DNA from: an uncultured bacterium | GTDB lineage: Bacteria; Chloroflexota; Anaerolineae; J036; Brachytrichaceae | Length of the DNA stretch: 34,927 nt | NCBI GenBank assembly: GCA_903921365.1 | Contig: CAIXPS010000247.1 | Coordinates: 1-34,927, forward strand | Direction of reading: 5' to 3' | In this document: piece after piece, positions 158-30,385 of the stretch | Numbering within the stretch: the stretch's first letter is position 1 | How the letters are laid out: each line of letters opens with the position of its first letter | The notes under the pieces: model-generated | The model's input: the letters and a program-made list of their open reading frames with translations, nothing else | What the model was told of the DNA's origin: nothing | Database searches by the model: none | Translations under genes and position numbers: made by a program

Positions 158-633
158 TACACAGTCCCTTTCAATTCATCAACCATCTTGTCAAAGCCAT
201 CAGGTGTTAGAGAGTAGCGATACTCGCGGTTCACCTGGGCCACCGGCGCGCGGTCACATGCGGCAATGCACATAACTGTGCGAAGCGTAAACTTGCCGTC
301 TGGCGTGGTCTGGCCGGCGCGGACGCCCAGTTTGCGCTCGCAATGGTGGACAAACGCATCCGCCCCCTTCAACGCACAGGGCAGGTCGTCACACACCTCG
401 ATCACGTACTGCCCGGTCTTCTCTTCAAAGAACATGGTGTAGAAACCCACGACGGACTTGACCTCGGTTGGGTCAAGCGCAGTCAGGTCGGCCACCTCGC
501 GGATCGCCTCGTCGCTGCAATAGCCATATTCTTCCTGCGCCAGATACAACAACGGCATTACGGCGCTGCGCTTTGTCGGATACTTGGACAGAATTATCTC
601 AATGTCCGCTGAGCGTTTGTCTTTCAAAGTCAT
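157..633 (-). CDS. nuoE: NADH-quinone oxidoreductase subunit E (24 kDa [2Fe-2S] subunit)
   Basis: NuoE carries the N1a [2Fe-2S] cluster of the complex I peripheral arm and pairs with NuoF. The 158-residue product has the family's four cysteine ligands: C81 and C86 (Cx4C in EVCDDLPC) and C122 and C126 (Cx3C in VMCIAACDRAP). The N-terminal helical region (KRSAVMPLLYLAQEEYGY) is also typical, and the length is normal for this thioredoxin-like subunit. The ATG overlaps the nuoD stop as ATGA, and the stop overlaps the nuoF start, so it is translationally coupled on both sides. Confidence 0.96.
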   Translation of the reverse strand: MTLKDKRSADIEIILSKYPTKRSAVMPLLYLAQEEYGYCSDEAIREVADLTALDPTEVKSVVGFYTMFFEEKTGQYVIEVCDDLPCALKGADAFVHHCERKLGVRAGQTTPDGKFTLRTVMCIAACDRAPVAQVNREYRYSLTPDGFDKMVDELKGTV

Positions 634-1925
634 CTGTCAACCTCACCAAGGACGATATCGACGGAGCCAATGATGCCCACGATGTCCGCGATCAGACACC
701 CCTTGCTCATCTGCGGAAGCGCCTGCAGATTGCACAGAGATGGCGCGCGGAAATGGACGCGGCGCGGCTTTGTGCCGCCATCCGAGGAAATATAGACGCC
801 AAACTCACCCTTGCCGCTTTCCACCGAGAAATACACTTCGCCTTCCGGCGCTCTGAAACCTTCCGTCCACAACTTGAAGTGATGGATCAGCGACTCCATC
901 GAGTAAGCAATCTCGTGTTTCGGCGGCGGCGCGATCTTGCGATTGTCGGTGATCACCGGACCGGGAGGCAGTTTATCGAGCGCCTGCTGAATGATCTTCA
1001 GGCTCTGGTAAAACTCTTCCATGCGGCAGCGATAGCGATCATACACGTCGCCCTTGCTTCCCACTGGCACGCTGAACTCGAAATGGTCATACGAAGAATA
1101 GGGCATGGCCTTGCGAACATCGTAGTTCACGCCGCTGCCGCGCAGCGAAGGCCCAGTCATGCCCCAGGCGATTGCGTCTTCTTTGCTGATGACGCCCACC
1201 CCAATGGTGCGCTCGCGCCACAGAGGGTTCTCTTTAAGCAGCTTTTCGTAATCCAGCAACTTGTCAGGGAAAACCTTCAGCACGTTCTTCACCGCGTCGA
1301 CAAACCCATCCGGCACATCGCGCCACAACCCGCCGACGCGGAAATAACTAGCCATCATGCGCGTGCCCGATACCATCTCGAAAATATCGAGCAGCAACTC
1401 ACGCTCGCGGAAGGTGTAGAGAAACATGCTCATGGCGCCGATGTCGAGCGCGTGAGTCCCAAGCCACACCAGATGGCTGTTCATGCGGGTCAATTCGTTC
1501 AGAATCACGCGGATGTATTGCGCGCGCAAGGGCACATCAACGTCAACCAGTTTCTCCACCGCGCCCACATACGCCAGGTTGCAGATCATCGGCGCAAGAT
1601 AGTCGATTCGGTCAGTGACGACAATTGCCTGGGTGTAAGTCTTGTTCTCGGCGGTTTTCTCGATGCCGGTGTGCAGGAAGCCGATGTCCGGTATGCAGTT
1701 GATCACCGTCTCGCCGTCAAGCTCCAACAGTAGTCGCAACACGCCGTGCGTCGAAGGGTGCTGCGGCCCCATGTTCAGCAGCATATTCTCGCCCGTCAGC
1801 GCGCGCGGTGAAACCAGCTTCTTCAACTGGTCTAAGGTAATGTCGAGCTGGGTGTCGGCAGCGCTGACGACGTTCTTCGCCGACTCTTCTATCCTGACTC
1901 TTGGTTCTGCTTCGGATGTCGTCAT
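630..1925 (-). CDS. nuoD: NADH-quinone oxidoreductase subunit D (49 kDa subunit)
   Basis: NuoD helps form the quinone pocket at the base of the complex I peripheral arm and is related to the large subunit of NiFe hydrogenases. The 431-residue protein has the diagnostic MGPQHPSTHGVLR near residue 52, then FLHTGIEK, and ends with the VDIVLGEVDR tail. It has about 50 residues before the first conserved block, somewhat longer than many homologues. This extension is charged and shows no targeting features. It is a separate gene and not fused to NuoC as in Escherichia coli. Its stop overlaps the nuoE start (ATGA), and nuoC ends 3 bases upstream of its start. Confidence 0.97.
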   Translation of the reverse strand: MTTSEAEPRVRIEESAKNVVSAADTQLDITLDQLKKLVSPRALTGENMLLNMGPQHPSTHGVLRLLLELDGETVINCIPDIGFLHTGIEKTAENKTYTQAIVVTDRIDYLAPMICNLAYVGAVEKLVDVDVPLRAQYIRVILNELTRMNSHLVWLGTHALDIGAMSMFLYTFRERELLLDIFEMVSGTRMMASYFRVGGLWRDVPDGFVDAVKNVLKVFPDKLLDYEKLLKENPLWRERTIGVGVISKEDAIAWGMTGPSLRGSGVNYDVRKAMPYSSYDHFEFSVPVGSKGDVYDRYRCRMEEFYQSLKIIQQALDKLPPGPVITDNRKIAPPPKHEIAYSMESLIHHFKLWTEGFRAPEGEVYFSVESGKGEFGVYISSDGGTKPRRVHFRAPSLCNLQALPQMSKGCLIADIVGIIGSVDIVLGEVDR

Positions 1926-1928
1926 AGC

Positions 1929-2450
1929 TTATTCTTGTGCGCGGGGTTTGTCCGCCTCCACACGCTCGCGGTTGAACGTGAACGCCACTTCCTCAACCTT
2001 CACAGGGTTCTCCTTCAGCAGCGGATGACCCTCCCATCCAGGCGGCATCATGATGCGCCGCAGGTCAGGATGGTTTTCGAAGTTGATCCCGAACAGGTCG
2101 TAGATCTCGCGCTCCAGCCAGTTGGCCGCTATCCACACACCGGCGGCCGTCGGGATGGATCGGTCGTATTCGCTGAGCATCACCTTGACCCGCACGCGGA
2201 TGTTGCGCGATGTCGAATAAAGCTGATACAAAATAGCGAAGCGCGGCTCCTTCGGCAGGTAGTCCACGCAGGTCTCGTCGGTCAGCATGTCAAAGTGCTG
2301 CGCGTCGCGCAGATGGGTCAATACCTCGACCACGCGCCCTTTGGTGGTAATGAGCGTCACCTCATCCCTGAAAACACGAACGTCATTTACAGCGTCGCCC
2401 AGTGCCGCCACGGTTGCGTCCAGGTTCGCCGTCGTTACAGTTTGTTCCAT
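1929..2450 (-). CDS. nuoC: NADH-quinone oxidoreductase subunit C (30 kDa subunit)
   Basis: NuoC is a structural subunit of the complex I connecting module that packs against NuoD. The 173-residue product carries the family signature around EREIYDLFGINFENHPDLRR, followed by MMPPGWEGHPLLK. The length fits the stand-alone form of the subunit. The start has no clear ribosome-binding site and lies 13 bases after the nuoB stop. The ATG at 2450 was chosen because it gives the usual N-terminal length. Confidence 0.95.
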   Translation of the reverse strand: MEQTVTTANLDATVAALGDAVNDVRVFRDEVTLITTKGRVVEVLTHLRDAQHFDMLTDETCVDYLPKEPRFAILYQLYSTSRNIRVRVKVMLSEYDRSIPTAAGVWIAANWLEREIYDLFGINFENHPDLRRIMMPPGWEGHPLLKENPVKVEEVAFTFNRERVEADKPRAQE

Positions 2451-2463
2451 ACTAATATTGCGG

Positions 2464-2946
2464 CTACTGCCACTTTGTGAGCGGTTCTTTCTTAATCTTG
2501 TCTTGCAGCTTCAGAATGCCGTCAATCAGGGCTTCGGGTCGCGGGGGGCATCCTGCTACGTACACATCCACAGGCACTATCTCGTCAACGCCTTGTATTA
2601 CGGCGTAGTTGTTAAACACACCGCCGCACGAAGCACAATCGCCCATTGCAATCACCCACTTGGGTTCGGGCATTTGATCATACAAATTGCGCAGCACGGG
2701 CGCCATCTTGCGACTGACGCGACCCGCCACAATCATCAGGTCAGACTGGCGCGGGCTGGCGCGCATCAACTCCATACCGAAGCGCGACAGGTCATAATTG
2801 CTCGCCTGTGTGCTCATCATCTCGATGGCACAGCAGGCTAGACCGAACAGCATTGGCCAGATGGCGTTGGTGCGGGCCCAGTTAATGGCCTTCTCCGCCG
2901 ACATCGTGACAACGCCCATGTTACCCAGTTTTTGTTCCAAACCCAT
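2464..2946 (-). CDS. nuoB: NADH-quinone oxidoreductase subunit B (PSST subunit, cluster N2)
   Basis: NuoB holds the terminal [4Fe-4S] cluster N2, which passes electrons to quinone. The 160-residue protein shows all four ligands at the conserved spacing: adjacent C38 and C39 (LACCAIEMM), C104 (GDCASCGG) and C133 ([10 protein letters not shown]). C107 is an additional cysteine near the third ligand. A GAGG ribosome-binding site lies 7 bases before the ATG at 2946. The gene is followed by nuoC and preceded by nuoA in the standard order. Confidence 0.97.
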
Positions 2947-2975
2947 ACATCAACCTCACGCAAAGCAGGCGAACG

Positions 2976-3362
2976 CTACTGCTTGTCCATGCTTTCCCAC
3001 TCAAGCGCGCCCTTTTTCCACAACCAGATGTAACCAACGAGCAGCACACCAATGAAGACCATCATCTCGAAAAATCCGAACAACCCCAACTGCCTGAATG
3101 CCACGGCAAAGGGGTAGAAGAAAATCACTTCAATGTCAAACAGAATAAAGAGCACTGCGATCAGGTAGAAGCGCACGGGGAAACGGCGCTGCCCGCTACC
3201 AATCGCGTTCATTCCGCTCTCATAGGGAGCCACCTTTTTTGCGGCCTTTGCGCGGCGTTTTGGGCCGAAAACGACCGAGATCAGAATCACCAGACCCGCA
3301 ACGGCTGTTGACAAAAATAGAAGGATAAAGAGGGGCAAATAATCAGACAATTCAGTGTGCAT
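2976..3362 (-). CDS. nuoA: NADH-quinone oxidoreductase subunit A
   Basis: NuoA is a small membrane subunit of complex I at the junction between the peripheral and membrane arms. The 128-residue product has three predicted membrane helices (about residues 8-32, 64-85 and 97-115). The conserved loop YESGMNAIGSGQRRFPVRFY leads into LFILFDIEVIFFYPFA, whose acidic pair (D76, E78) is typical. It is the first gene of the minus-strand nuo operon. Upstream sequence up to the divergent gene at 3653 must hold its promoter, but no strong -35/-10 pair was found; GATAAAAT in the upstream AT-rich stretch is a weak -10 candidate. Confidence 0.96.
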   Translation of the reverse strand: MHTELSDYLPLFILLFLSTAVAGLVILISVVFGPKRRAKAAKKVAPYESGMNAIGSGQRRFPVRFYLIAVLFILFDIEVIFFYPFAVAFRQLGLFGFFEMMVFIGVLLVGYIWLWKKGALEWESMDKQ

Positions 3363-3652
3363 TGCTCACCAGTACTTAAGCCTCGCCAAACCCAGATTAA
3401 TCGATTTGCGCATTTTATCACAAGCAACCTCTTTTATAAGCATCTTTTCTTTCGACCGCAGCCAAACCACATCGCAACCCACCAGCTTTCCGTGTAATGG
3501 CGAACAACCACAGTTATGCCTGTTGCTATGGTGAGAGCATTCTCACGATGCGTTCATTGCTCCTTATGAATTGAACCTTATGATGATTGGGCAAGCTTGG
3601 TTTGGTTTGTATCGAGAAGCGGACAATTATTTGATGTTATGTGGAGTGGCGT
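3363..3652. other. Divergent intergenic region between nuoA and the repeat-protein gene
   Basis: This 290-base AT-rich stretch separates two divergent transcription units and holds no convincing gene. It contains an inverted repeat, GTGAGA at 3531-3536 and TCTCAC at 3541-3546 with a 4-base centre, which could be an operator. A plus-strand promoter candidate, TTGCTC at 3557-3562 and TATGAT at 3579-3584 with a 16-base spacer, lies about 70 bases upstream of the repeat-protein start. Both assignments are tentative. Confidence 0.4.
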
Positions 3653-4483
3653 ATGAAAAGATCGATTGCAATTATTGTGGCTGGATTTGTAACGACAGTG
3701 ACAATCATGGGTGGGACGCTCGTGGCTGCACAGACAGGCGCCTTTACAAGCGTCTCCGCCTCCGTGCAACCAAATGGGGAAATTCGGGTATTGCATAACG
3801 ACACTCGAAACCCTGCACCGTTGACGGATACTATTGAGATCAGATATTACACGGAGACGGAACAGCTTGACTCCCACGGCCCACCCGAAGTTGTCTTCAC
3901 TGACACCACGAATGTCGGCGCACCCTTCGAGACAAAGTTGTACGAGGCGTACGAAAAACTGCGGGGGGGGATGGCAGATCAAGACGTCGACGGCGGTGAT
4001 TGGGGCATCTCTGGAACGATGACAACCACGCATCACGAGCACGAAGTAGATGTGAATGACGGTATCCATATGTTCACCGACACAATCACCGGAACGCATC
4101 ATCACGAGATTCATGAGATTAATGACGACGGTTTCAAAGGATTCACAGACACGATCACGGATACCTATCACCAAAGCGAGAGCGGCAGCGATCATGATTT
4201 GCATGTGTTAACCGACACGCTCACGCACACGAATCACCTGGACGTCAAAGATGAGCATGGCGGGGAAATCCACTTGGGTGACGAAAATCACAATATCACC
4301 GGCACCATCGATATTACGAGCACGCGCCACGGTGACAATAAGTCGGTTGATGTTTCGCGCCAGGGTCAGAACACTGGCCATGGCGGCGCAAATACCCGGC
4401 AAAACTCGGACAATTCAGGCAATAACAACAATCGGTCGGGGCAGGGGAATAACAGTGGTCGCGGAGATCGCAGAAAACCCTAG
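3653..4483 (+). CDS. Secreted His/Asp-rich repeat protein of unknown function
   Basis: I do not recognise a named family. The ATG at 3653 is preferred over the upstream GTG at 3641 because a GTGGAG ribosome-binding site lies 6 bases before it; this gives 276 residues. Residues 1-26 form a signal peptide ending LVAA, so the protein is probably exported. Residues 118-228 hold about five degenerate repeats of about 23 residues built on FTDTITxTxHH: strand-like alternation of Thr, Ile and Asp followed by His/Asp/Glu-rich turns such as THHEHEVDVND and THHHEIHEINDD. The last 40 residues are Asn/Gly/Gln/Ser-rich and basic. Clustered histidines and acids suggest metal binding, and the repeats suggest a beta-solenoid; both are inferences. 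It lies directly upstream of a two-component system on the same strand but is separated from it by a terminator. A G8 tract at 3963-3970 is a possible slippage site. Confidence 0.75.
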   Translation: MKRSIAIIVAGFVTTVTIMGGTLVAAQTGAFTSVSASVQPNGEIRVLHNDTRNPAPLTDTIEIRYYTETEQLDSHGPPEVVFTDTTNVGAPFETKLYEAYEKLRGGMADQDVDGGDWGISGTMTTTHHEHEVDVNDGIHMFTDTITGTHHHEIHEINDDGFKGFTDTITDTYHQSESGSDHDLHVLTDTLTHTNHLDVKDEHGGEIHLGDENHNITGTIDITSTRHGDNKSVDVSRQGQNTGHGGANTRQNSDNSGNNNNRSGQGNNSGRGDRRKP

Positions 4484-4522: not shown

Positions 4523-4559
4523 AGCAGCCCTCACAGACAAGACGTTTGTGAGGGCTGTT
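4523..4559 (+). terminator. Rho-independent-like terminator hairpin
   Basis: CAGCCCTCACA at 4525-4535 pairs perfectly with TGTGAGGGCTG at 4547-4557. Pairing extends inward (with one G.U) to a 5-base loop and outward to 4523/4559, and a T-rich stretch (TTATCATTT) follows. It lies 40 bases after the repeat-protein stop and 37 bases before the response regulator, so it probably ends the first transcript and separates the two units. In the genome strand the right arm also precedes a TAATAT motif at 4576-4581 that could serve the next gene. Confidence 0.8.
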
Positions 4560-4595: not shown

Positions 4596-5282
4596 ATGCG
4601 CGTATTACTGGCAGAAGACGATCATCGAATCGCAGGATTCATCACCAAAGGGCTGCACGAAGAAGGCTATCTTGTGCAGCATGTGTCAGACGGCGAACAG
4701 GCGCTCGAATATGCCATCGCCGATCCCGACATGCCGTTTGATCTGATCATCATGGATATCCTGATGCCAAAGCGCGACGGCTTATCCGTGTGCCGCGAAC
4801 TGCGCACGCGCGGCATCCACATCCCCATCCTGATGCTCACGGCATTGGACACGCTGGATGACCGTGTCCGCGGTCTTGACAGTGGCGCAGACGACTACCT
4901 GATCAAGCCATTCGCTTTCCCCGAATTGATGGCGCGGCTGCGAGCATTGTCGCGTCGCATGCCGATCGCTGCCAAAACCAACATGATGCAAATCGGCGAG
5001 TTGATCCTCGACACCGTGGCGCATACCGCGAAACGCGGCAACCGCAGGATTGAACTCAGTTCGCGCGAGTACCACCTGCTGGAGTACCTCATGCGCCACA
5101 GCGGTCGGCCGGTCAGCCGCACCAGCATCCTGCAAGCCATCTGGTCGTTCGACTACGACGGGGCGTCAAATGTCGTCGATGTATATGTGGGGTATATTCG
5201 CCGCAAGATAGATCACGAGGGAGAGCCGCCGCTGGTGCATACGGTGCGCGGCGTCGGGTACAAGATATCGGAGTCCCCGTAG
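4596..5282 (+). CDS. OmpR/PhoB-family response regulator
   Basis: This DNA-binding response regulator is paired with the kinase that follows. The 228-residue protein has a receiver domain (about 1-118) with acidic pair D8/D9, phosphoacceptor D54 (IIMDILMPKRDG), switch T82 and conserved K104 (YLIKPFAFPEL). A winged-helix output domain (about 127-225) includes LSSREYHLLEYLMRHSGRPV and ends VDVYVGYIRRKID...VRGVGYKI. No clear ribosome-binding site precedes the ATG. A TAATAT motif at 4576-4581 would put transcription start very close to it, so a short or leaderless transcript is possible. The stop shares a base with the kinase GTG (TAGTG), showing translational coupling. Its targets are unknown; the upstream repeat-protein gene is an obvious candidate. 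Confidence 0.95.
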   Translation: MRVLLAEDDHRIAGFITKGLHEEGYLVQHVSDGEQALEYAIADPDMPFDLIIMDILMPKRDGLSVCRELRTRGIHIPILMLTALDTLDDRVRGLDSGADDYLIKPFAFPELMARLRALSRRMPIAAKTNMMQIGELILDTVAHTAKRGNRRIELSSREYHLLEYLMRHSGRPVSRTSILQAIWSFDYDGASNVVDVYVGYIRRKIDHEGEPPLVHTVRGVGYKISESP

Positions 5283-7783
5283 TGCTCGATTTCGTTCGCA
5301 CCATCCGTTTTAAGTTGACGGTATGGTTCGTCGGTATTCTGGCGATCGTCATCCTCGCCATCAGCGCCCTGCTCTATATCGGCCTGCAGCGCGTGCTGCT
5401 GCAAAGCGTTGATGCCAACTTGCGCACCGCCGGTGTGCGCAGTGTGGCGCCCGCAAACGCTGACCAAAGCCTGCAGGAGCCCGGCTATCCGGATAACGAA
5501 CAGAGCGATCAACTGCGCCGGCTGGTGCTATTGAGCAACACCCCCGCGCGTCTGTTGTCGCTGGATGGCGCGCTTCTCCAGAGCGATCCCCTCTTCCCGC
5601 GCGGTATCTCTATTACCATGGAGGCGTTGAACACCGCCAACCAGGGCGCGGCGCGTTTCGAGACGATTGAAGTCGGGCTGAGCACCTATCGCCTGTACAC
5701 CGCCCCGGTGAAGGTAAACAACATCCGCACCGCCATCGTGCAGGTCGTTGACTCCATGGACGAGCAAATCAGAACGCTGGCGGGGCTGCGTTCGTTGCTA
5801 ACCTGGCTGATCCCTTTCACCTTGCTCCTTTCCGCCATCGGTGGATCATTTCTATCAGGGCGCACCCTCGCGCCTATGACGCGCGTGCGCCGCGATGTCG
5901 AGAAAATCATCGAACAGGCCGACCTGTCGCACCGCGTGAGCACCGACTTGCCCGACGACGAGGTAGGACGCCTGGCGCGCACATTCGACCAGTTGCTCGA
6001 ACGTGTGCAACAGGCGATGGAGCGCGAGCGGCGCTTCACCTCCGATGCCTCGCACGAACTGCGCAGCCCGCTCACCGTTCTGAAGGGCGAAATCTCCGTC
6101 GCGCTCAGCCGCGAGCGCCGCGGTGAGGAATATCGCGCTACTCTGGCGCAGCTTGAGCCAACGGTCGACGATATGATCCAACTCGTCGAAGACCTGCTGA
6201 CACTGACGCGCGCGGCCGGGAACAAGCAGATTGTGTCCATGTCGCCATTAAATATCGTCGATCTGGTAACGACGATCTGTGATCGGCTGCAAGTTGTCGC
6301 CAATGGCAAAGGCATCTCGCTGCAACCGCAATCAGATCGCGCGTCGATGATCATCCTGGGAGATCGCATCAAGTTGCAGCGCATCTTCACCAACCTGATC
6401 GACAACGCGATACGCTACACACCCAAGGGTGGTAAAGTCGACGTCACACTGCATAACGAAGGGTACAGTGTTCACATCGATGTGCGCGACACGGGACGCG
6501 GCATTGCTGCCGAACATTTGCCGCGCCTGTTCCAGCGTTTTTACCGCGCGGATAATGACCGGGCGCGCGACAGCGGCGGAACCGGTCTTGGGCTGGCCAT
6601 TGCACAGACCATTGCGCGCTCTCACGGCGGCAGAATCACTGTCGAGAGCAAACTCGGTCGAGGGAGTTGTTTTACCGTGGCGCTTCCGCTTGCGCCGAAC
6701 CAGGATGCGTTGTCGCCGGCGCAGCCTGAAAATCGCTCGCAGAGCGCGCAGCGTGAGCTTCGCGAGTCCAGAGGCATACGCCGGCTGAAGAAGAAGTTAG
6801 ATAAGGTCATCAATCCCATGCCAGTATCAGTACACACCTCCAGCAATGTCGCATTGCACGACCGCACCTTTCGCGCGATGAATACCGATGTCGCGCTGTA
6901 CCTGTTAAGCGCCGATGCCCGTCACGCCAACTGCGTGCTCGATGCCGCCGAGTGGTTCTTCGTGCAGACCGAGTGGCGATTGAGCCGCTTTCGCGACAGC
7001 AGCGAACTATCAATGCTGAATCGGAATAGTCCAGCTCAGGTTTCGCGCGTCTTGTTTGAAATACTGCAACTAGCGGCCCGATCCTGCGAGGAAACCAATG
7101 GCGTCTTCAACCCGCTGATTGGCCCGGCGCTCATTGCTGCCGGGTATAACCGCACATTCGATGATATAGGCTCTGATTCCGTGCAAACGGGCCTGCTTGA
7201 GGCGACAACGACCGTCCCATCGTTCAGCGATTCAGTCGCGCTTGATCCGATTACCCGTCTGGTGACGCTGCGCAATGGGGCGCAACTGGACCTCGGTGGA
7301 ATTGCCAAGGGCTGGGCCATCGACCGCGCTTTTCGGACGCTATCCAAACTGGGGCCGTGTTGTGTAAACGCCGGCGGCGATGTCCACGTCGGCGGGTCTT
7401 TCGAGACCGGCGGCAACGGTTGGCGCATCGATGTCGCCGATCCATTCGCGCCCGAGGACGGTTCCATCCCGGGAGTGCGCGCGGTGATGATGAAAGACCA
7501 GGCGATTGCGACATCTGGCATCATGAAGCGCCGCTGGATCGTTAATGGCGCGGAGCAACACCACCTGATCGACCCGCGCACAGCGCAACCCGCGCGCAAC
7601 AACCTGCTCTTCGTGACCGCCATCGCCGACACAGCTATTCAGGCCGAAGTCGCTGCAAAGACGGTGTTCATCATGGGTGAGGAAGAAGGGAGCGCATGGG
7701 CTGACGCGCGCCGCATTCCGGTGCTGCTGATGTTCCGCAACGGCGAGTATCTGTGCAACGAGTACTTCCCAGCCGAGGCTTAA
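5282..7783 (+). CDS. Sensor histidine kinase fused to an ApbE-type FAD:protein FMN transferase
   Basis: One uninterrupted 833-residue frame encodes two normally separate proteins. The kinase half has membrane helix 1 (about 12-36), an extracytoplasmic sensor loop (about 37-171), helix 2 (about 172-192), HAMP (about 190-247), phosphoacceptor H258 in SDASHELRSPL, N box N375 (NLIDNAIRY), and ATP-lid motifs DTGRGIA (403) and GGTGLGLAI (432). After a basic linker (about 478-525) an ApbE domain fills 528-830: FRAMNTDVAL, LSRFRDSSELSMLN, FNPLIG, LDLGGIAKGWAID, NAGGD, IATSG, HHLIDPRT and AEVAAK. ApbE enzymes transfer FMN from FAD to a Ser/Thr of target proteins. They usually act outside the membrane, but this topology puts the domain in the cytoplasm beside the kinase core. 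The GTG start overlaps the regulator stop. An internal ATG at 6818 could give a free ApbE; no strong ribosome-binding site supports it. Confidence 0.93.
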   Translation: MLDFVRTIRFKLTVWFVGILAIVILAISALLYIGLQRVLLQSVDANLRTAGVRSVAPANADQSLQEPGYPDNEQSDQLRRLVLLSNTPARLLSLDGALLQSDPLFPRGISITMEALNTANQGAARFETIEVGLSTYRLYTAPVKVNNIRTAIVQVVDSMDEQIRTLAGLRSLLTWLIPFTLLLSAIGGSFLSGRTLAPMTRVRRDVEKIIEQADLSHRVSTDLPDDEVGRLARTFDQLLERVQQAMERERRFTSDASHELRSPLTVLKGEISVALSRERRGEEYRATLAQLEPTVDDMIQLVEDLLTLTRAAGNKQIVSMSPLNIVDLVTTICDRLQVVANGKGISLQPQSDRASMIILGDRIKLQRIFTNLIDNAIRYTPKGGKVDVTLHNEGYSVHIDVRDTGRGIAAEHLPRLFQRFYRADNDRARDSGGTGLGLAIAQTIARSHGGRITVESKLGRGSCFTVALPLAPNQDALSPAQPENRSQSAQRELRESRGIRRLKKKLDKVINPMPVSVHTSSNVALHDRTFRAMNTDVALYLLSADARHANCVLDAAEWFFVQTEWRLSRFRDSSELSMLNRNSPAQVSRVLFEILQLAARSCEETNGVFNPLIGPALIAAGYNRTFDDIGSDSVQTGLLEATTTVPSFSDSVALDPITRLVTLRNGAQLDLGGIAKGWAIDRAFRTLSKLGPCCVNAGGDVHVGGSFETGGNGWRIDVADPFAPEDGSIPGVRAVMMKDQAIATSGIMKRRWIVNGAEQHHLIDPRTAQPARNNLLFVTAIADTAIQAEVAAKTVFIMGEEEGSAWADARRIPVLLMFRNGEYLCNEYFPAEA

Positions 7784-20600: not shown

Positions 20601-22514
20601 TTATCGTGAGTAGCTAAGTGGATTGTGATCCTTGCCGTGACAACTGAGGGCGCAACTACCGCCATTAGTCGTCGGTATGTAAGCGGACTGGCTATTTGCC
20701 GAACCATTGGGTGTGACGACGCTGAGATCAAAATTGATCAGATAGAGCTGCTCGCTGCCATGCGAATTGTGGCACGCATAACAACTTGCGCCTTTCTCAG
20801 CAACATGCTTGGAATGCAGGTTATCCGTTCCAATGCGGAAATTCGTATCAGCGCCTGATCCGGATCCGGCGTACGTTGAATAATTGTGACATTGAAAACA
20901 CACTTCTTTTGAGTTGGGTGTTTGTCGCGCGTCTATGCTGGTGTAATTCGCGCCGCCCTTCAGAATGTGCAAGTTCGACGAACCGTGCGGGCCCAACCCC
21001 TGCGTCGCCGAATCCGGATTGTTATGACAACTGCTGCAATAGATCATACTGGCGCTTGACATTCCCGAACCCGCGGCCCAGCTTCCCGCGGGAATATTCT
21101 GATTGACCCCCTGGGCCGTCACCGGATGAAAGCTCGCATTGTTGGGGTTGAATTCGCGCGCCATATCGCGACTGTCGAGTATCTGGTTACTATTCGGGCT
21201 GGTCAGCTTTGGCAAACCATTAGCAACATAGTCCGCGCCGTTCCACCCATCGGGCAAGTAAGAAGGCAGATACGTAAAACTGGAATGACACTTAAAGCAG
21301 ACCTGATATTCACGTTCCGCCTGGGTCATAAAGGTGTATCCGGCCGGTAATCCTGCGCCTGTCCACGACGCATCAACGCCAGATGTGCCGTTCATCACCT
21401 GCTGTAAAAATGGCGCACTGGCCGAGCCGCGCGTGGCTTTGTGCGGCTCGTGACAATCCTCACACTCGACATGGCGTTTCGCAGCGCCAAACTGGTCAAG
21501 GGAAGACTCTAAAGCCTGGTGAACGCCGCTCGTGGCGGCGACATCATGTTTGAAAAATCTCGTAGCCGTGTTCGTGTTATTGACAAAGGCTGGTTGAATG
21601 TTTGTGCCGGCAAATGGATTTGAAGCTCCCGCCGCGGTGTGGCAGGCAAAACACACGTTCTCTTCGAGTGCGGCAGTGCGCAAAACGGTTCCCTGGGCGG
21701 TGTGTGTGCGATGGCAGGCGGCGCAACTGGATGTCGAAGTGTCGTAACTCACATGCGGGTCGTTGGCCGATGGAATCAGTGTGGGCGCAGGGGCTTGTGC
21801 AATTGGCGTGGCCATGGCATACATATGCACAATGATTCTGCCCGACGGCGTTGAGGTGAATATCGGAGTCGCGGTGACAACAACAGTCGGGCTGATCTCA
21901 ATATAGGCAGAGATCGTGGCTGTCGCAGTCAGCACAAACCATGGCGTGGCCGTTACATAAGGTGTGGCAGTCTCGGCCGTCTGAGTGACCACCATTGTCC
22001 CACTGAAGACAGGCGTTGCCGTCGGAGTTGCGCTTTCTGTTGGGCTGGGTGTCGGCGTCGGAACGACGCTTGCGGTTGGCGTAGCACTTTCCGTCGGGCT
22101 GGATGTTGGCGTCGCAACAACGCCTTCTGTTGGCGCGGGCGTTTCTGTTGGGCTGGATGTTGGCGTCAGAACAACGCTTTCTGTTGGAGGAACCGTCGGC
22201 ATTTGCGTTGGAGTTGCGATTGCCAGATCAGGCGTCGATGTGCTTGTGGCAACCAACGTCGGCGTCGCTGTGGCGGCTTGATTGACAATGGCGCCTGGCG
22301 TCGCTGTCAGTGCGAGCGTGGCAGTAGGCGTCAACATCAGTGTGGGTGTTATCGTTGATGTTTCAGCGCCAATCGCCGCCATACGCGGCAGTGGTTGAGC
22401 GGTGATTTCCTGCATCATCGCCGTATAGATCGTCCCGGCAAATGCAAACAGACATACCATGACTGCTATCAATAGATAGAGCAGTCGGTAAACTGTAGAG
22501 TATCTGCGGGACAT
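20601..22514 (-). CDS. Membrane-anchored octaheme cytochrome with Pro/Thr-rich stalk
   Basis: From the ATG at 22514 (AGAGG 9 bases upstream) the protein has 637 residues. A membrane helix at about 9-30 is probably an uncleaved anchor or signal. Residues about 50-230 form a low-complexity Thr/Pro/Ser/Val stalk with repeated TPTxSPTExxxPT units, like a spacer through a cell wall or surface layer. The C-terminal part has seven CXXCH sites (CAACH, CFACH, CEDCH, CFKCH, CSSCH, CFQCH, CYACH) and a final CX3CH (CALSCH), so up to eight hemes. Several sites have the trailing histidine of doubled-CXXCH proteins. It lies between the two hexaheme paralogues and may hold a heme wire away from the membrane. 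An upstream ATG at 22571 lacks a ribosome-binding site. Confidence 0.9.
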   Translation of the reverse strand: MSRRYSTVYRLLYLLIAVMVCLFAFAGTIYTAMMQEITAQPLPRMAAIGAETSTITPTLMLTPTATLALTATPGAIVNQAATATPTLVATSTSTPDLAIATPTQMPTVPPTESVVLTPTSSPTETPAPTEGVVATPTSSPTESATPTASVVPTPTPSPTESATPTATPVFSGTMVVTQTAETATPYVTATPWFVLTATATISAYIEISPTVVVTATPIFTSTPSGRIIVHMYAMATPIAQAPAPTLIPSANDPHVSYDTSTSSCAACHRTHTAQGTVLRTAALEENVCFACHTAAGASNPFAGTNIQPAFVNNTNTATRFFKHDVAATSGVHQALESSLDQFGAAKRHVECEDCHEPHKATRGSASAPFLQQVMNGTSGVDASWTGAGLPAGYTFMTQAEREYQVCFKCHSSFTYLPSYLPDGWNGADYVANGLPKLTSPNSNQILDSRDMAREFNPNNASFHPVTAQGVNQNIPAGSWAAGSGMSSASMIYCSSCHNNPDSATQGLGPHGSSNLHILKGGANYTSIDARQTPNSKEVCFQCHNYSTYAGSGSGADTNFRIGTDNLHSKHVAEKGASCYACHNSHGSEQLYLINFDLSVVTPNGSANSQSAYIPTTNGGSCALSCHGKDHNPLSYSR

Positions 22515-22637
22515 GTTCATGAACCTCTTTTGATCTCGCGTTGTGTCTTTACTGAAGTGCTTATAACGCATGAAAGAGCGAAATGGAGGGCAGGATCGTC
22601 AATCCAGCGCCCTCCCATTTCACTGCAGTCACCTTGT

Positions 22638-26006: not shown

Positions 26007-27647
26007 TTACTTCCCTGGGCTTGTGCCGGTAGGTGTAATCGGGCTCGTTTGAACGCTGAAACTACCGCTTGTAATCGTGCTTGTATACGGGGCGTCGATA
26101 GTGCCTGTAGTGACGCCGGTATAGCCATTTGTCGCAATAGTCGTGTGACACCGGCTGCATAGCACATCCTGATGGCACATGTAACAAGCCAACGCGCCGC
26201 TCTTCTGGAATTGAGTCGGGTGCGAGTAGAGCATGTCCTGTGGATGTGAAACGCCATGGCATACGCTGTTGTTGCATGACTTCTCGCCATGACACTGATA
26301 GCACTCCTGCTTTTGCATTTCGGTGGTAGATCGATGTTCGATCGTCCACCTGAAGTCATTATGCGTGGCAGGCTTGCTCCCGCCGATAATGGGAGTGTTC
26401 ACACCGATCTCGTCTCCGCGGCTGGTAATGGGCACGCTATGGCAGGTATTGCATTCCGCGCTGATTGTCCCAACGACTTTCCCAGTTGCGTCTTCTGTAA
26501 CATGCTTGCCATCGTGGCATCGGAAACAGCCGGATGATCCGGCATGGTGCTCGAAATTGGGGTTCGTATCCCAGTAGGCCTTCATTTCAGGAAAGCTCGT
26601 ATCGCCATAAAGAGACTTGAGTTCAGTAACGGTAGCGTCCAGTTTTCCGGCAACGGCGCCCGGGTAATTCTTCTGATAGAAGGCGCCCAGTGCATCGATT
26701 GCCGTATTGGCTTCACCTGTGCTGGGGTACTTCTGCCTCAGTAAATCCACTACTTTGGATCGAATGAAGGGCAGGTCGGTTGACAGGCGATTCAGCGACA
26801 AGGCATTATCAACGGCCTCTTCGGGTGTTGGGATGTAATGTGCGGTCCGGTTATGGCAATCGATGCAATCCATGAGGCGCACCTGATCATCGGCGCGAGC
26901 CTTATCCACAAATGCCTTACGGTCCATATTGAGCATGTCGCGAGAGAAATACTCTTTTAGTGAGCCATCTTTTTGCTCCACACCAATCCATGCAATGATC
27001 TGCCGTTGCTCGTCCACCGGAATGTAATAGATCTTGCTGCTGATATGCCAGTGAATTCCCTGGCTGAAGCCCGAGCCTGTCTGCGTGCCGCCCATCTTCA
27101 GAACCAGAGTCGTCTGGAGCTTAGTATTGGCCTCGTCGCTATCATAATGAATGATCGACTTGATCAGGTTATCCTTAAAGCTCTGGGGGTTATGGCAGGT
27201 TTCGCAGGTTTCACGCGCAGGGCGTAAGTCTTTCACCGGTCCCTTAATGGGCAGATTGTAACTATGGTTCAGCGTCAAAAACAATTGCCGCGCCCCATTG
27301 ATTTTCGACCGGACAAAGTGCTCGACGCCGGGGCCAATATGGCAGCTTACACACTCGACGTTGACGTGCGCCGATATATTGTGCTGAGTAAATTGTGGAC
27401 CCATGGAATGGCATAGTGTCCCGCAGAACTCCGTGCTCTCCATATAGACATAGCCCTGAATACCCGCAGCTCCTATCACTATTAAGACGACCAGCAGACC
27501 TAACGCACTCAAGGCTACCTTGCCTCGATCGGCAGGCCGATTAAGATCGATGTTAACCTTCGGCCAACTGCGCTTTGACCGCCGAGTTGGGAGGGTCGCC
27601 TGCTGCGATGCAGTCGTCACTTTTTTTGGCTTATTGAAGAATGGCAT
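26007..27647 (-). CDS. NapC/NrfH-like membrane decaheme cytochrome
   Basis: The 546-residue protein has a basic cytoplasmic N-terminus, one membrane helix at about 45-70, then heme sites: CGTLCHSM (CX3CH), CVSCH, CETCH, CIDCH, CFRCH, CNTCH, CYQCH, CNNSVCH (CX4CH), CYMCH and CSRCH, ten in total. A first site of the CxxCHxM kind directly after the membrane helix is typical of NapC/NrfH quinol dehydrogenases, where the Met ligates heme 1, but the rest of the protein is much larger than that family. It probably passes electrons from menaquinol to the downstream multiheme proteins. The last residues are Thr/Gly/Ser-rich. It is the first gene of the operon; AAGG lies 8 bases before the ATG. Confidence 0.9.
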   Translation of the reverse strand: MPFFNKPKKVTTASQQATLPTRRSKRSWPKVNIDLNRPADRGKVALSALGLLVVLIVIGAAGIQGYVYMESTEFCGTLCHSMGPQFTQHNISAHVNVECVSCHIGPGVEHFVRSKINGARQLFLTLNHSYNLPIKGPVKDLRPARETCETCHNPQSFKDNLIKSIIHYDSDEANTKLQTTLVLKMGGTQTGSGFSQGIHWHISSKIYYIPVDEQRQIIAWIGVEQKDGSLKEYFSRDMLNMDRKAFVDKARADDQVRLMDCIDCHNRTAHYIPTPEEAVDNALSLNRLSTDLPFIRSKVVDLLRQKYPSTGEANTAIDALGAFYQKNYPGAVAGKLDATVTELKSLYGDTSFPEMKAYWDTNPNFEHHAGSSGCFRCHDGKHVTEDATGKVVGTISAECNTCHSVPITSRGDEIGVNTPIIGGSKPATHNDFRWTIEHRSTTEMQKQECYQCHGEKSCNNSVCHGVSHPQDMLYSHPTQFQKSGALACYMCHQDVLCSRCHTTIATNGYTGVTTGTIDAPYTSTITSGSFSVQTSPITPTGTSPGK

Positions 27648-27922
27648 TAATAGAACCTTAGAACTGGCCTCATATCTATGCTGAGAATGTTAAGCGAATA
27701 ACCGGTAGTCCCGACTGCCCATAGGTGTGCGTTCCCATAAGACTTTGGTCTGATGGTCGGAGGCAGGTTTTGTCATACAATCCGTACAGGTAGCCTTTCA
27801 AACAAACGTCACCGGAATGACTTATGAGAAATTACTCATTAGTTACACGCAGCACTACTTAATTGAAGCGTTACACTCTTTAGAAGCAGTTAATTGCGTA
27901 TCGCCATGCGTTGAGGTTAGAT
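27648..27922. other. Divergent intergenic region between the cytochrome operon and ccmE
   Basis: This 275-base region separates the minus-strand cytochrome operon from the plus-strand maturation genes. It holds no convincing gene. A near-perfect inverted repeat, GGTAGTC (27704-27710) and GACTGCC (27713-27719) with a 2-base centre, could be an operator serving both directions. A second small inverted repeat, AGAC-TTTG-GTCT, lies at 27740-27751. No strong -35/-10 pair was found in either direction; TTATTC-17-TAGATA on the minus strand is a weak candidate. Confidence 0.4.
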
Positions 27923-28369
27923 ATGAAGCCAAAGTTCATCATTGGGATCGGTATCGTTATTGTTGCTGTCATTGCCGTCATGGGTTTTGCCGTAGCAGGC
28001 AACAGCAGTATGGAAGTGCAGGTCAACGATGTCGTTGCGCAGCGTTTACAGGGCGTGGATCTGTCACAACGAGTCCTTAAATTGACCGGCGTGGTGGTCG
28101 GCGATAGTATCGTCTATGAGCCATCGTCGCTGCATCTGGAATTTGACGTTGTGAACTCGCGCGAAGATCTGGTGGGTAGCCCGGCCAAAACGCCGCGTTT
28201 ACGGGTCGTTTACCAGGGAGTCAGACCGGATACTTTGGTAAACGAGGCACACGCCATCGTCACCGGCAAACTGTCAGCAGACGGCAAGTTTTACGCTGGA
28301 CAGGCGCAGGATTCGTTGATGCTGCAATGCCCCACGAAGTATCAGAGCGCCCAGACCGCAAGCAGGTAA
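27923..28369 (+). CDS. ccmE: CcmE heme chaperone, Cys-type (CXXXY)
   Basis: CcmE receives heme from the CcmABCD complex and hands it to the CcmF lyase for attachment to apocytochromes. The 148-residue protein has a membrane helix at about 5-25 followed by an OB-fold region (LRVVYQGVRPDTLVNEAHAI, then DGKFYAG). Canonical CcmE binds heme covalently through the His of HxxxY; here the motif is C136 in QCPTKY, the CXXXY variant known from some archaea and sulfate reducers. The ATG at 27923 is preceded by GAGG with 6-base spacing; a TTG at 27911 is less likely. ccmF follows after 12 bases. Confidence 0.9.
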   Translation: MKPKFIIGIGIVIVAVIAVMGFAVAGNSSMEVQVNDVVAQRLQGVDLSQRVLKLTGVVVGDSIVYEPSSLHLEFDVVNSREDLVGSPAKTPRLRVVYQGVRPDTLVNEAHAIVTGKLSADGKFYAGQAQDSLMLQCPTKYQSAQTASR

Positions 28370-28381
28370 TCAAGCACGCCA

Positions 28382-30385
28382 ATGATTACCGATCTCGGGT
28401 ATATTGCATTAGTTATTTCGCTGCTGGTTTGTGTGTATGCAATTGCGACATCGTTGCTTGGCGCGCGGCGCAATGACGAGAGGTTAGTCCAGAGCGGTCG
28501 AAATGCGGCAAAGCTGGTTTTTCCACTGGTGCTAGTCGCCTGCATCGGCCTGTGGTACGCCTTAATCACGTTTGATTTCGGGGTGATCTATGTCGCGGAT
28601 GTGTCCAGCAAGGCCACGCCGCTGTTCTACCGGATCACGGCGCTGTGGGGTTCACAGGGGGGCTCGATCCTGTTCTGGAACCTGCTCATGTCAGCTTTCA
28701 TCTTTGTGGCAATGCTACGCAATTGGTCCGAGGATAAGGATCTGCTGCCGTATGTCACTGCTGTGGCATGCCTTATAGCAGGCTTCTTTATCTTCATTAA
28801 TCTCTCTTCCGCCAATCCCTTCCTGCGCTTTGATTTTCCACCCGCAGATGGGCGCGGACTGAACCCGCTCCTGCGGCATCCGGGCATGATCATCCATCCC
28901 CCGATGCTTTACGCCGGATATACGAGCTTCATCATCCCGTTTGCTTTCTTAATCGCGTCACTGGCGGTGGGCAGGCGTGACAACCTGTGGCTTATCAAGT
29001 CCCGGCGTTGGACGCTGGTGGGCTGGGCTTTTCTAGCATCGGGATTGCTGCTGGGCGGGCGTTGGGCGCATGATGTTCTGGGCTGGGGCGGCTACTGGGG
29101 CTGGGATCCGTCGGAGAATATGCCGTTTGTGTCATGGCTTTTCGCAACCGCTTTCCTGCATTCAGCCATGATTCAGGAAAAGCGCGGCATGTTCAAGAAC
29201 TGGAACGTCCTTTTGATGGCGTTCACCTTCGTCTCCATTTTCTTCGGCACCTCGTTCATCCGAAGCGGCCTGCTCACATCGGTGCATGCCTTTGCCAAAT
29301 CCAACCTGGGGCCGCTCTTCCTGGGGTTCATGGTCCTTATACTCGGCGGCACGATCCTATTGTGGTTCAGCCGCCTGGACACGTTGCATAGCGAGAACAA
29401 GCTGGACTCGTGGTTCTCACGAGAAGGGATTTTCCTGCTGCAAAACGTGCTCTTTGTGAGCACAGCGATCACGATTTTCCTGGGCACGATTTTCCCGACG
29501 ATTACTGAAGCCATCAATGGCGTGAAGATCACCGTAGGCCCTCCGTTCTACAACCAGGTTGCGGGTCCGCAGCTAATCATCCTGGTGCTATTGATGGGAG
29601 TTGCGCCACTGCTGGCGTGGCGCAAGGCCAGTGCGCGGGCGCTGGGGAAAATGTCACTCATCCCCGCAGTGATCAGCCTGATCGCATTTGTGCTGATCCT
29701 TGTTGGGTCCGGACAGGTGATCCCATCTCTGTTGCTGGTTTTGTGTCTGTACACGTTTGTCCAGACCTGCCTCGAATATATTCGAGGCGTCAGGGCGCGC
29801 GTTAACAGTGCCGGCGAGAGTATCCCTGTCGCACTGCTGCATCTGGTGCAACGCAACCAGCGCCGCTATGGCGGCTACCTGATCCACATCGGGATTGTCC
29901 TGATTGCGGTTGGCGCTATCGGAAAGGGCTTTTACGGAACTGATGTGTTGCGAAATGTAAAACTCAATGACAGCTTCACGGTTGGTTCATACACGTTTAC
30001 CTACCGTGGAATTGCTTCCGTTCCCTGCGAGTTTAATGACTGCCAATCAGTCGAAGCCGCCCTCTTGACGACGTCGTCCCGCGACGGCAGCATCATCGGC
30101 GGGGTTTACCCCCATCGAGATCAATTCCCAGCCCAGCAGGAAACGTCCACCATCGCCGATATCACAGGAAGCTTCAACGAGGAAGTGTATGTCATTCTGG
30201 CTGGATGGGAGAATAACGGAACAACCGCTTCATTCCAGGTCTATATCAACCCGTTGATAAACTGGATATGGACAGGCGGCATCGTATTGATCCTGGGGTT
30301 TCTGCTGGCCTTCTGGCAAATGGAACCCTCCACGGCTATTCGCACAGTCCCGATCGCGCGAATGGTTGGATCACCCTCAAAATGA
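28382..30385 (+). CDS. ccmF: Cytochrome c-type biogenesis protein CcmF (heme lyase subunit)
   Basis: CcmF takes heme from holo-CcmE and ligates it to CXXCH apocytochromes on the outer face of the membrane. The 667-residue protein has many membrane helices, the WWD signature WGGYWGWDPSENMPFVSWL (about 235-253), and candidate periplasmic heme-binding histidines H172 (HPPMLYAGY) and H260 (AFLHSAMI). A C-terminal soluble loop and last helix complete the family pattern. Length is normal. The gene serves the cytochromes encoded on both sides; no ccmA, B, C, G or H is in this window. Confidence 0.95.
   Translation: MITDLGYIALVISLLVCVYAIATSLLGARRNDERLVQSGRNAAKLVFPLVLVACIGLWYALITFDFGVIYVADVSSKATPLFYRITALWGSQGGSILFWNLLMSAFIFVAMLRNWSEDKDLLPYVTAVACLIAGFFIFINLSSANPFLRFDFPPADGRGLNPLLRHPGMIIHPPMLYAGYTSFIIPFAFLIASLAVGRRDNLWLIKSRRWTLVGWAFLASGLLLGGRWAHDVLGWGGYWGWDPSENMPFVSWLFATAFLHSAMIQEKRGMFKNWNVLLMAFTFVSIFFGTSFIRSGLLTSVHAFAKSNLGPLFLGFMVLILGGTILLWFSRLDTLHSENKLDSWFSREGIFLLQNVLFVSTAITIFLGTIFPTITEAINGVKITVGPPFYNQVAGPQLIILVLLMGVAPLLAWRKASARALGKMSLIPAVISLIAFVLILVGSGQVIPSLLLVLCLYTFVQTCLEYIRGVRARVNSAGESIPVALLHLVQRNQRRYGGYLIHIGIVLIAVGAIGKGFYGTDVLRNVKLNDSFTVGSYTFTYRGIASVPCEFNDCQSVEAALLTTSSRDGSIIGGVYPHRDQFPAQQETSTIADITGSFNEEVYVILAGWENNGTTASFQVYINPLINWIWTGGIVLILGFLLAFWQMEPSTAIRTVPIARMVGSPSK

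Follow-up and report, generated by a model that had tools for sequence, protein, structure and literature searches.

A sensor histidine kinase fused in frame to an ApbE-family domain in one genus of Chloroflexota

Does an open frame that reads from a sensor histidine kinase (HK) straight into an ApbE-family domain encode a genuine two-part protein, and what would such a protein do? The question is raised by a gene in the window analysed here, a 34,927-nucleotide stretch of DNA from an uncultured member of the Chloroflexota (contig CAIXPS010000247.1). The HK-ApbE fusion gene (5282..7783, + strand) is a single open frame of 833 aa, running from a GTG at 5282 to a TAA at 7783, and its start overlaps the stop of the response regulator (RR) gene by one base. 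Pfam domains were detected in the N-terminal half for HAMP (residues 190-244), HisKA (249-311; E 1e-11) and HATPase_c (360-471; E 9e-35), the last two exceeding the Pfam cut-offs, and in the C-terminal half for ApbE (554-812; E 5e-51, 174 bits against a cut-off of 25.6). Along the + strand the protein consists of a first transmembrane helix, an extracytoplasmic sensor and a second transmembrane helix (aa 7-193; 5300..5860), placed by hydrophobicity and the AlphaFold2 model, followed by HAMP, HisKA (H258) and HATPase_c (N375) (aa 190-471; 5849..6694), placed by Pfam, residues and structure match. A variable linker (aa 473-523; 6698..6850), with 19-37% identity and low pLDDT and differing in length across species, leads to the ApbE domain (aa 524-826; 6851..7759), in which S745, R750, H761 and E789 are kept and K793 occupies the position of the metal-site-1 Thr. 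The G boxes of the kinase are intact, as are H258 and N375, which stand where a first-pass annotation of this DNA had placed them; its reading of a full sensor kinase running without a stop into a full ApbE is confirmed by Pfam, residues and four genomes.

The AlphaFold2 model (mean pLDDT 83.9) comprises two well-folded parts and a low-confidence linker (approximately 477-520), the first part matching CusS (TM-score by target 0.89 to 7zp0_A) and the second ApbE (0.82 to 1vrm). The pTM was low (0.47), so the relative placement of the kinase and ApbE parts is not predicted. The whole protein fits no single family definition, while the kinase and the ApbE-family domain are each genuine. By sequence and fold the first is a sensor histidine kinase, predicted to autophosphorylate and to transfer the phosphoryl group to the regulator; the second belongs to the ApbE family by domain score and fold, with a predicted role in transferring FMN to protein.

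Four separate genomes encode the same architecture in a single frame, as proteins of 812, 833, 841 and 847 aa that are 61-80% identical to the window protein. This rules out a sequencing error, frameshift or missed stop, and the fusion is for the same reason no assembly artefact; all genomes compared are drafts. Searches of 60 relatives and afterwards of 396 genomes from the class found the full fusion only in four species, all from the window's genus; in a fifth species of the genus the fusion gene leaves the contig at aa 281. Among the matches listed from 400 genomes of the phylum, no further ApbE match lay in a frame of more than 600 codons. A 1008-codon frame in genome G463 was rejected as a second fusion, its locus consisting of separate RR, HK, ApbE and FRD (ferric-reductase-like membrane protein) genes. 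None of the best 5000 plasmid records spans 80% of the fusion query in one place; on a Psychrobacter plasmid, HK, PepSY and ApbE are separate adjacent genes. Between species, identity over the ApbE half is 58-81%, near the kinase value, and its NG86 dN/dS was approximately 0.07-0.11 where dS, which is close to saturation, was computable; it is under purifying selection, and both halves are constrained.

The first-pass annotation had counted separate genes in relatives as evidence against the fusion. Separate genes do occur in sister genera, but inside the window's genus the two are fused wherever the locus is readable, so the sister genera look pre-fusion and do not refute it. It had also suggested looking for an internal protein beginning at 6818 (M513). 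The start exists in G000 and G001, but G003 has Ile and G002 a deletion at that position, and no clear Shine-Dalgarno sequence accompanies it; given its absence from two species, internal translation from 6818 is ruled out as a conserved feature.

The gene neighbourhoods of free relatives show what the fusion brought together. The fused ApbEs form one clade (support 100/98), which lies within a larger clade that also holds free ApbEs from four sister genera, G005, G021, G008 and G014. An FRD gene lies near or adjoins all 17 free ApbEs of this subtype whose loci were examined, with several of the FRDs falling below the PF01794 cut-off, and a response regulator lies within approximately 6 kb at 13 of the 17 loci, accompanied by a kinase in nearly all (two of the remaining four lie on short contigs). 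At six loci from three families (L070, L076, L079, L083, L086, L032) a separate ApbE is preceded directly, on its own strand, by an RR and a window-related HK, with gaps to ApbE of approximately 0.35 to 2.9 kb, and the two-component systems found near ApbE-FRD belong to several kinase lineages. As RR-HK, ApbE and FRD are recurrently neighbours in relatives, the fusion joined genes that were already associated. A PepSY-domain protein sometimes adjoins the free ApbE and PF01794-like gene, and no FMN_bind was seen beside free ApbEs of the subtype among the proteins scanned.

No FRD (PF01794) gene lies beside the fusion itself. Three of the five genomes of the fused genus (G000, G001, G003) carry an unlinked FRD gene without its ApbE, which in G000 and G003 belongs to a coil-X-FRD operon lacking ApbE; the G001 copy of this FRD lies at the edge of a contig. 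No ApbE was found on the orphan-FRD contigs of these three genomes. In the tree the orphan FRDs fall together (99/99) with FRDs from the G005, G021, G008 and G014 loci, the same loci whose ApbEs are sister to the fused ApbE. The main exception is G002, which has the fusion but in which a search at E 0.01 detected no FRD, so its fused ApbE may have another FRD partner or none. The same genome carries a free ApbE split over two frames with no FRD adjoining (L056 5320-6356, contig C131), possibly decaying or a sequencing error. The orphan FRD is followed in all three genomes by proteins (L053 6022-6930, L054 5345-6277, L055 7512-9457) that we take to be secreted and glycoside-hydrolase-like.

Upstream of the regulator and fusion genes lies a coil gene (3653..4483, + strand; alternative GTG at 3641) encoding a membrane-anchored or secreted, His-/Thr-rich protein with no known domain. 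It has a homologue encoded at the head of the orphan FRD operon, the L053 coil, which it matches at 52% over 46 aa (E approximately 1e-13). Its His-containing repeats (THHEHEV, THHHEIHE) could bind metal, and the G003 and G004 coils are not His-rich. Ahead of the regulator, in the gap that follows the coil gene, is a strong RNA hairpin (4523..4559, + strand; z = -8.6 in the window, no T tract) that recurs at the same place in L028, L027 and L030 with stem sequences differing among the four species, and may be a terminator or attenuator. The regulator (4596..5282, + strand) is an OmpR/CopR-type response regulator with a receiver and a winged helix. In G000, G003 and G004, but not in G001, complex I genes (nuoA-D) are divergent neighbours of the fusion operon (window 630-3362; L027 3010-5712; L030 91-1498). 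A respiratory cluster elsewhere in the window (20601-22571 and 26007-30385) comprises proteins resembling multihaem cytochromes and NrfH/TorC, close to a haem lyase of the CcmF/NrfE type.

A candidate response-regulator box, TTCTCACGATGCGTTCAT (3540..3557, + strand), precedes the coil gene as a 7-4-7 direct repeat matching TTCTCAY-N4-TTCTCAT at 11 of 14 positions. An 11-base period is the usual spacing of direct repeats for OmpR/PhoB-type regulators. The window box is weak, being equalled by 34% of shuffles for the plain consensus, and 11/14 matches, which also precede the orphan FRD operons of G000 and G003, arise about once per 11 kb. Across 12 family genomes a single site fits the consensus without mismatch, and it directly precedes the coil-RR-HK operon in G007, a genome with a further 12/14 site between HK and ApbE; G001 has a single one-mismatch box, in front of its fusion operon. 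No such box precedes the fusion operon in G003 or G004, although G003 has a perfect TTCTCAY/TTCTCAT pair there with a 6-base spacer, and no exact 8- or 9-mers are common to four or more promoters. The repeat was first spotted by eye and then tested, with a consensus partly picked from these same promoters, so the putative regulon link between the fusion and coil-X-FRD operons is support and not proof. The broader proposal of the first-pass annotation, that flavin-transferase genes are tied to two-component signalling, is strengthened by the conserved fusion, the recurrent neighbourhoods of two-component system, ApbE and FRD, and the shared promoter motif.

What these genomes show directly is a conserved fusion, a set of gene associations and orphan FRD genes. 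The explanation that we prefer for them, at about an even chance, is that two associated genes fused and that one two-component system carries the ApbE of an FRD electron-transfer system that it also controls. The kinase would sense an extracytoplasmic signal, for which metal or redox is a guess based on the CusS-like core and the His-rich neighbour, and would phosphorylate the regulator encoded with it. The regulator would then bind TTCTCAY-N4-TTCTCAT and activate both the operon that encodes it and, in trans, coil-X-FRD. Using cytosolic FAD, the tethered ApbE would place FMN on a component of the FRD electron-transfer system, while being held at the membrane in fixed ratio with the kinase. 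We infer the signal, chemistry and substrate of this system from its parts, and the fusion would probably provide mainly co-expression and membrane placement, with no allosteric switch.

Alternatively, the fusion may be neutral, a stop lost between neighbours leaving two halves that act independently with no gain over an operon. The recurrent same-strand order of RR-HK followed by a separate ApbE, the variable and flexible linker and the single origin in one genus all fit such an event, but all species of the genus in which the locus can be read have kept the fusion whole, with no conserved internal start to restore a free ApbE, and we consider this explanation unlikely. A direct coupling of the two halves is distinctly unlikely. 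Here the state of ApbE (FAD, AMP, substrate) would set the kinase/phosphatase balance, or the kinase would set the transferase, and transcription would follow flavinylation demand. The covalent link has been kept to at least 58-61% identity in four species, and the presence of two-component systems of several kinase lineages near ApbE-FRD makes a functional reason for linkage plausible. However, the linker is little conserved, variable in length and predicted to be disordered, and so does not suggest a mechanical link between kinase and ApbE, and sister genera work with unlinked genes. Direct control between kinase and transferase had been proposed at the outset, and nothing supporting either direction was found. 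We hold at the same low probability the fuller version, in which the kinase would read its own ApbE (FAD or unmodified substrate) and maturation of the electron-transfer system would gate its own transcription through the regulator box.

The preferred reading, control of an FRD system by a two-component system that carries its ApbE, places the ApbE half in the cytoplasm, and the first-pass annotation had placed it there too, noting that ApbE normally works outside the membrane. The fusion did not move it, since FRD-linked free ApbEs of the set already have no signal peptide, most starting at the domain itself, and the cytoplasmic site is thus inherited and not made by the fusion; an exported ApbE misplaced through fusion is ruled out. 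In this the FRD-linked free ones differ from the lipoprotein or Tat-type ApbEs of other Chloroflexota. The ApbE active site consists of Asp, Ser and His, plus Arg in FmnB, with residue roles assigned (PMC12052999), and D280 and T284 are the ligands of metal site 1 in the E. coli enzyme (PMC4767422). The fused ApbE keeps S745, R750 and H761, with E789 (Asp in G002) a conservative change at the acidic position; Ser, Arg and His are likewise kept throughout the FRD-linked ApbEs, in which the acidic position is Asp or Glu, with Glu usually replacing Asp. Across all the FRD-linked ApbEs compared, Lys takes the place of the metal-site-1 Thr (e.g., L038, L040, L070; K793 in the fusion), and by this residue the fused and FRD-linked free ApbEs form a subtype, for the whole of which transferase activity therefore stays putative. 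FAD-binding transferases have Tyr at the pyrophosphatase switch position (PMC4767422), where the fused domain has Phe, also aromatic, making an Ftp-type FAD pyrophosphatase less likely.

The canonical flavinylation motif was found in none of coil, X, FRD and regulator. The regulator had been proposed as a protein that the transferase might modify; with no canonical motif in it, this role is not supported. A signal-less canonical ApbE with Asp and Thr kept occurs in G000 (L039 5752-8719, contig C54) beside a membrane-anchored FMN_bind protein, which bears the flavinylation motif DLVSGATLT, a pairing of a cytosolic enzyme with an exported domain. That the fused ApbE is no protein flavin transferase and instead senses or splits FAD, as the altered metal site (ligands from PMC4767422) and the linked operons without a canonical target motif might suggest, is very unlikely given the retained Ser, Arg, His and acidic residue and an aromatic switch residue like the Tyr of FAD-binding transferases (PMC4767422).

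The literature searched, which covers few subscription papers, contained no report of a kinase-ApbE fusion and says nothing of the regulation of covalent flavin attachment; a kinase with a flavin transferase offers a direct handle on that regulation in bacteria. A signal-less ApbE, a membrane cytochrome and a two-component system together would indicate a regulated electron-transfer module in Chloroflexota. Such a module, with its altered metal site, could be missed by a survey demanding signal peptides, and the survey of flavinylation clusters retained a cluster only if its ApbE, FMN_bind, DUF3570 or DUF2271 gene had a signal peptide or lipidation site (PMC8238504).

The closest group to the window kinase core and regulator is that of the CusS/CopS/CztS kinases and CusR/CopR regulators (TIGR01386, TIGR01387), with both falling below the curated cut-offs (kinase, TIGR01386, 250.2 vs. 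292.55 bits; regulator, CusR/CopR-type profile, 229 vs. 279 bits). To our knowledge, no CusS/CopS/CztS-type member carries ApbE. The nearest known setting of the fused ApbE is the MsrQ-like flavinylation cluster, in which apbE accompanies a PF01794 cytochrome (PMC8238504), much as the ApbE of the free relatives lies beside a PF01794-like membrane protein. Unlike in those clusters (PMC8238504), the ApbE here is signal-less with no FMN_bind partner seen, and the fused ApbE sits away from the FRD gene and is joined to a kinase. ApbE is cytosolic in Klebsiella and is fused to fumarate reductase in trypanosomatids (PMC12052999), and these enzymes, alike in fold and in the active-site Ser, Arg and His, are precedents for the cytosolic site and for fusion. 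However, whereas the trypanosomatid ApbE is fused to its own substrate (PMC12052999), the window ApbE is fused to a sensor kinase and has Lys in place of the metal-site Thr.
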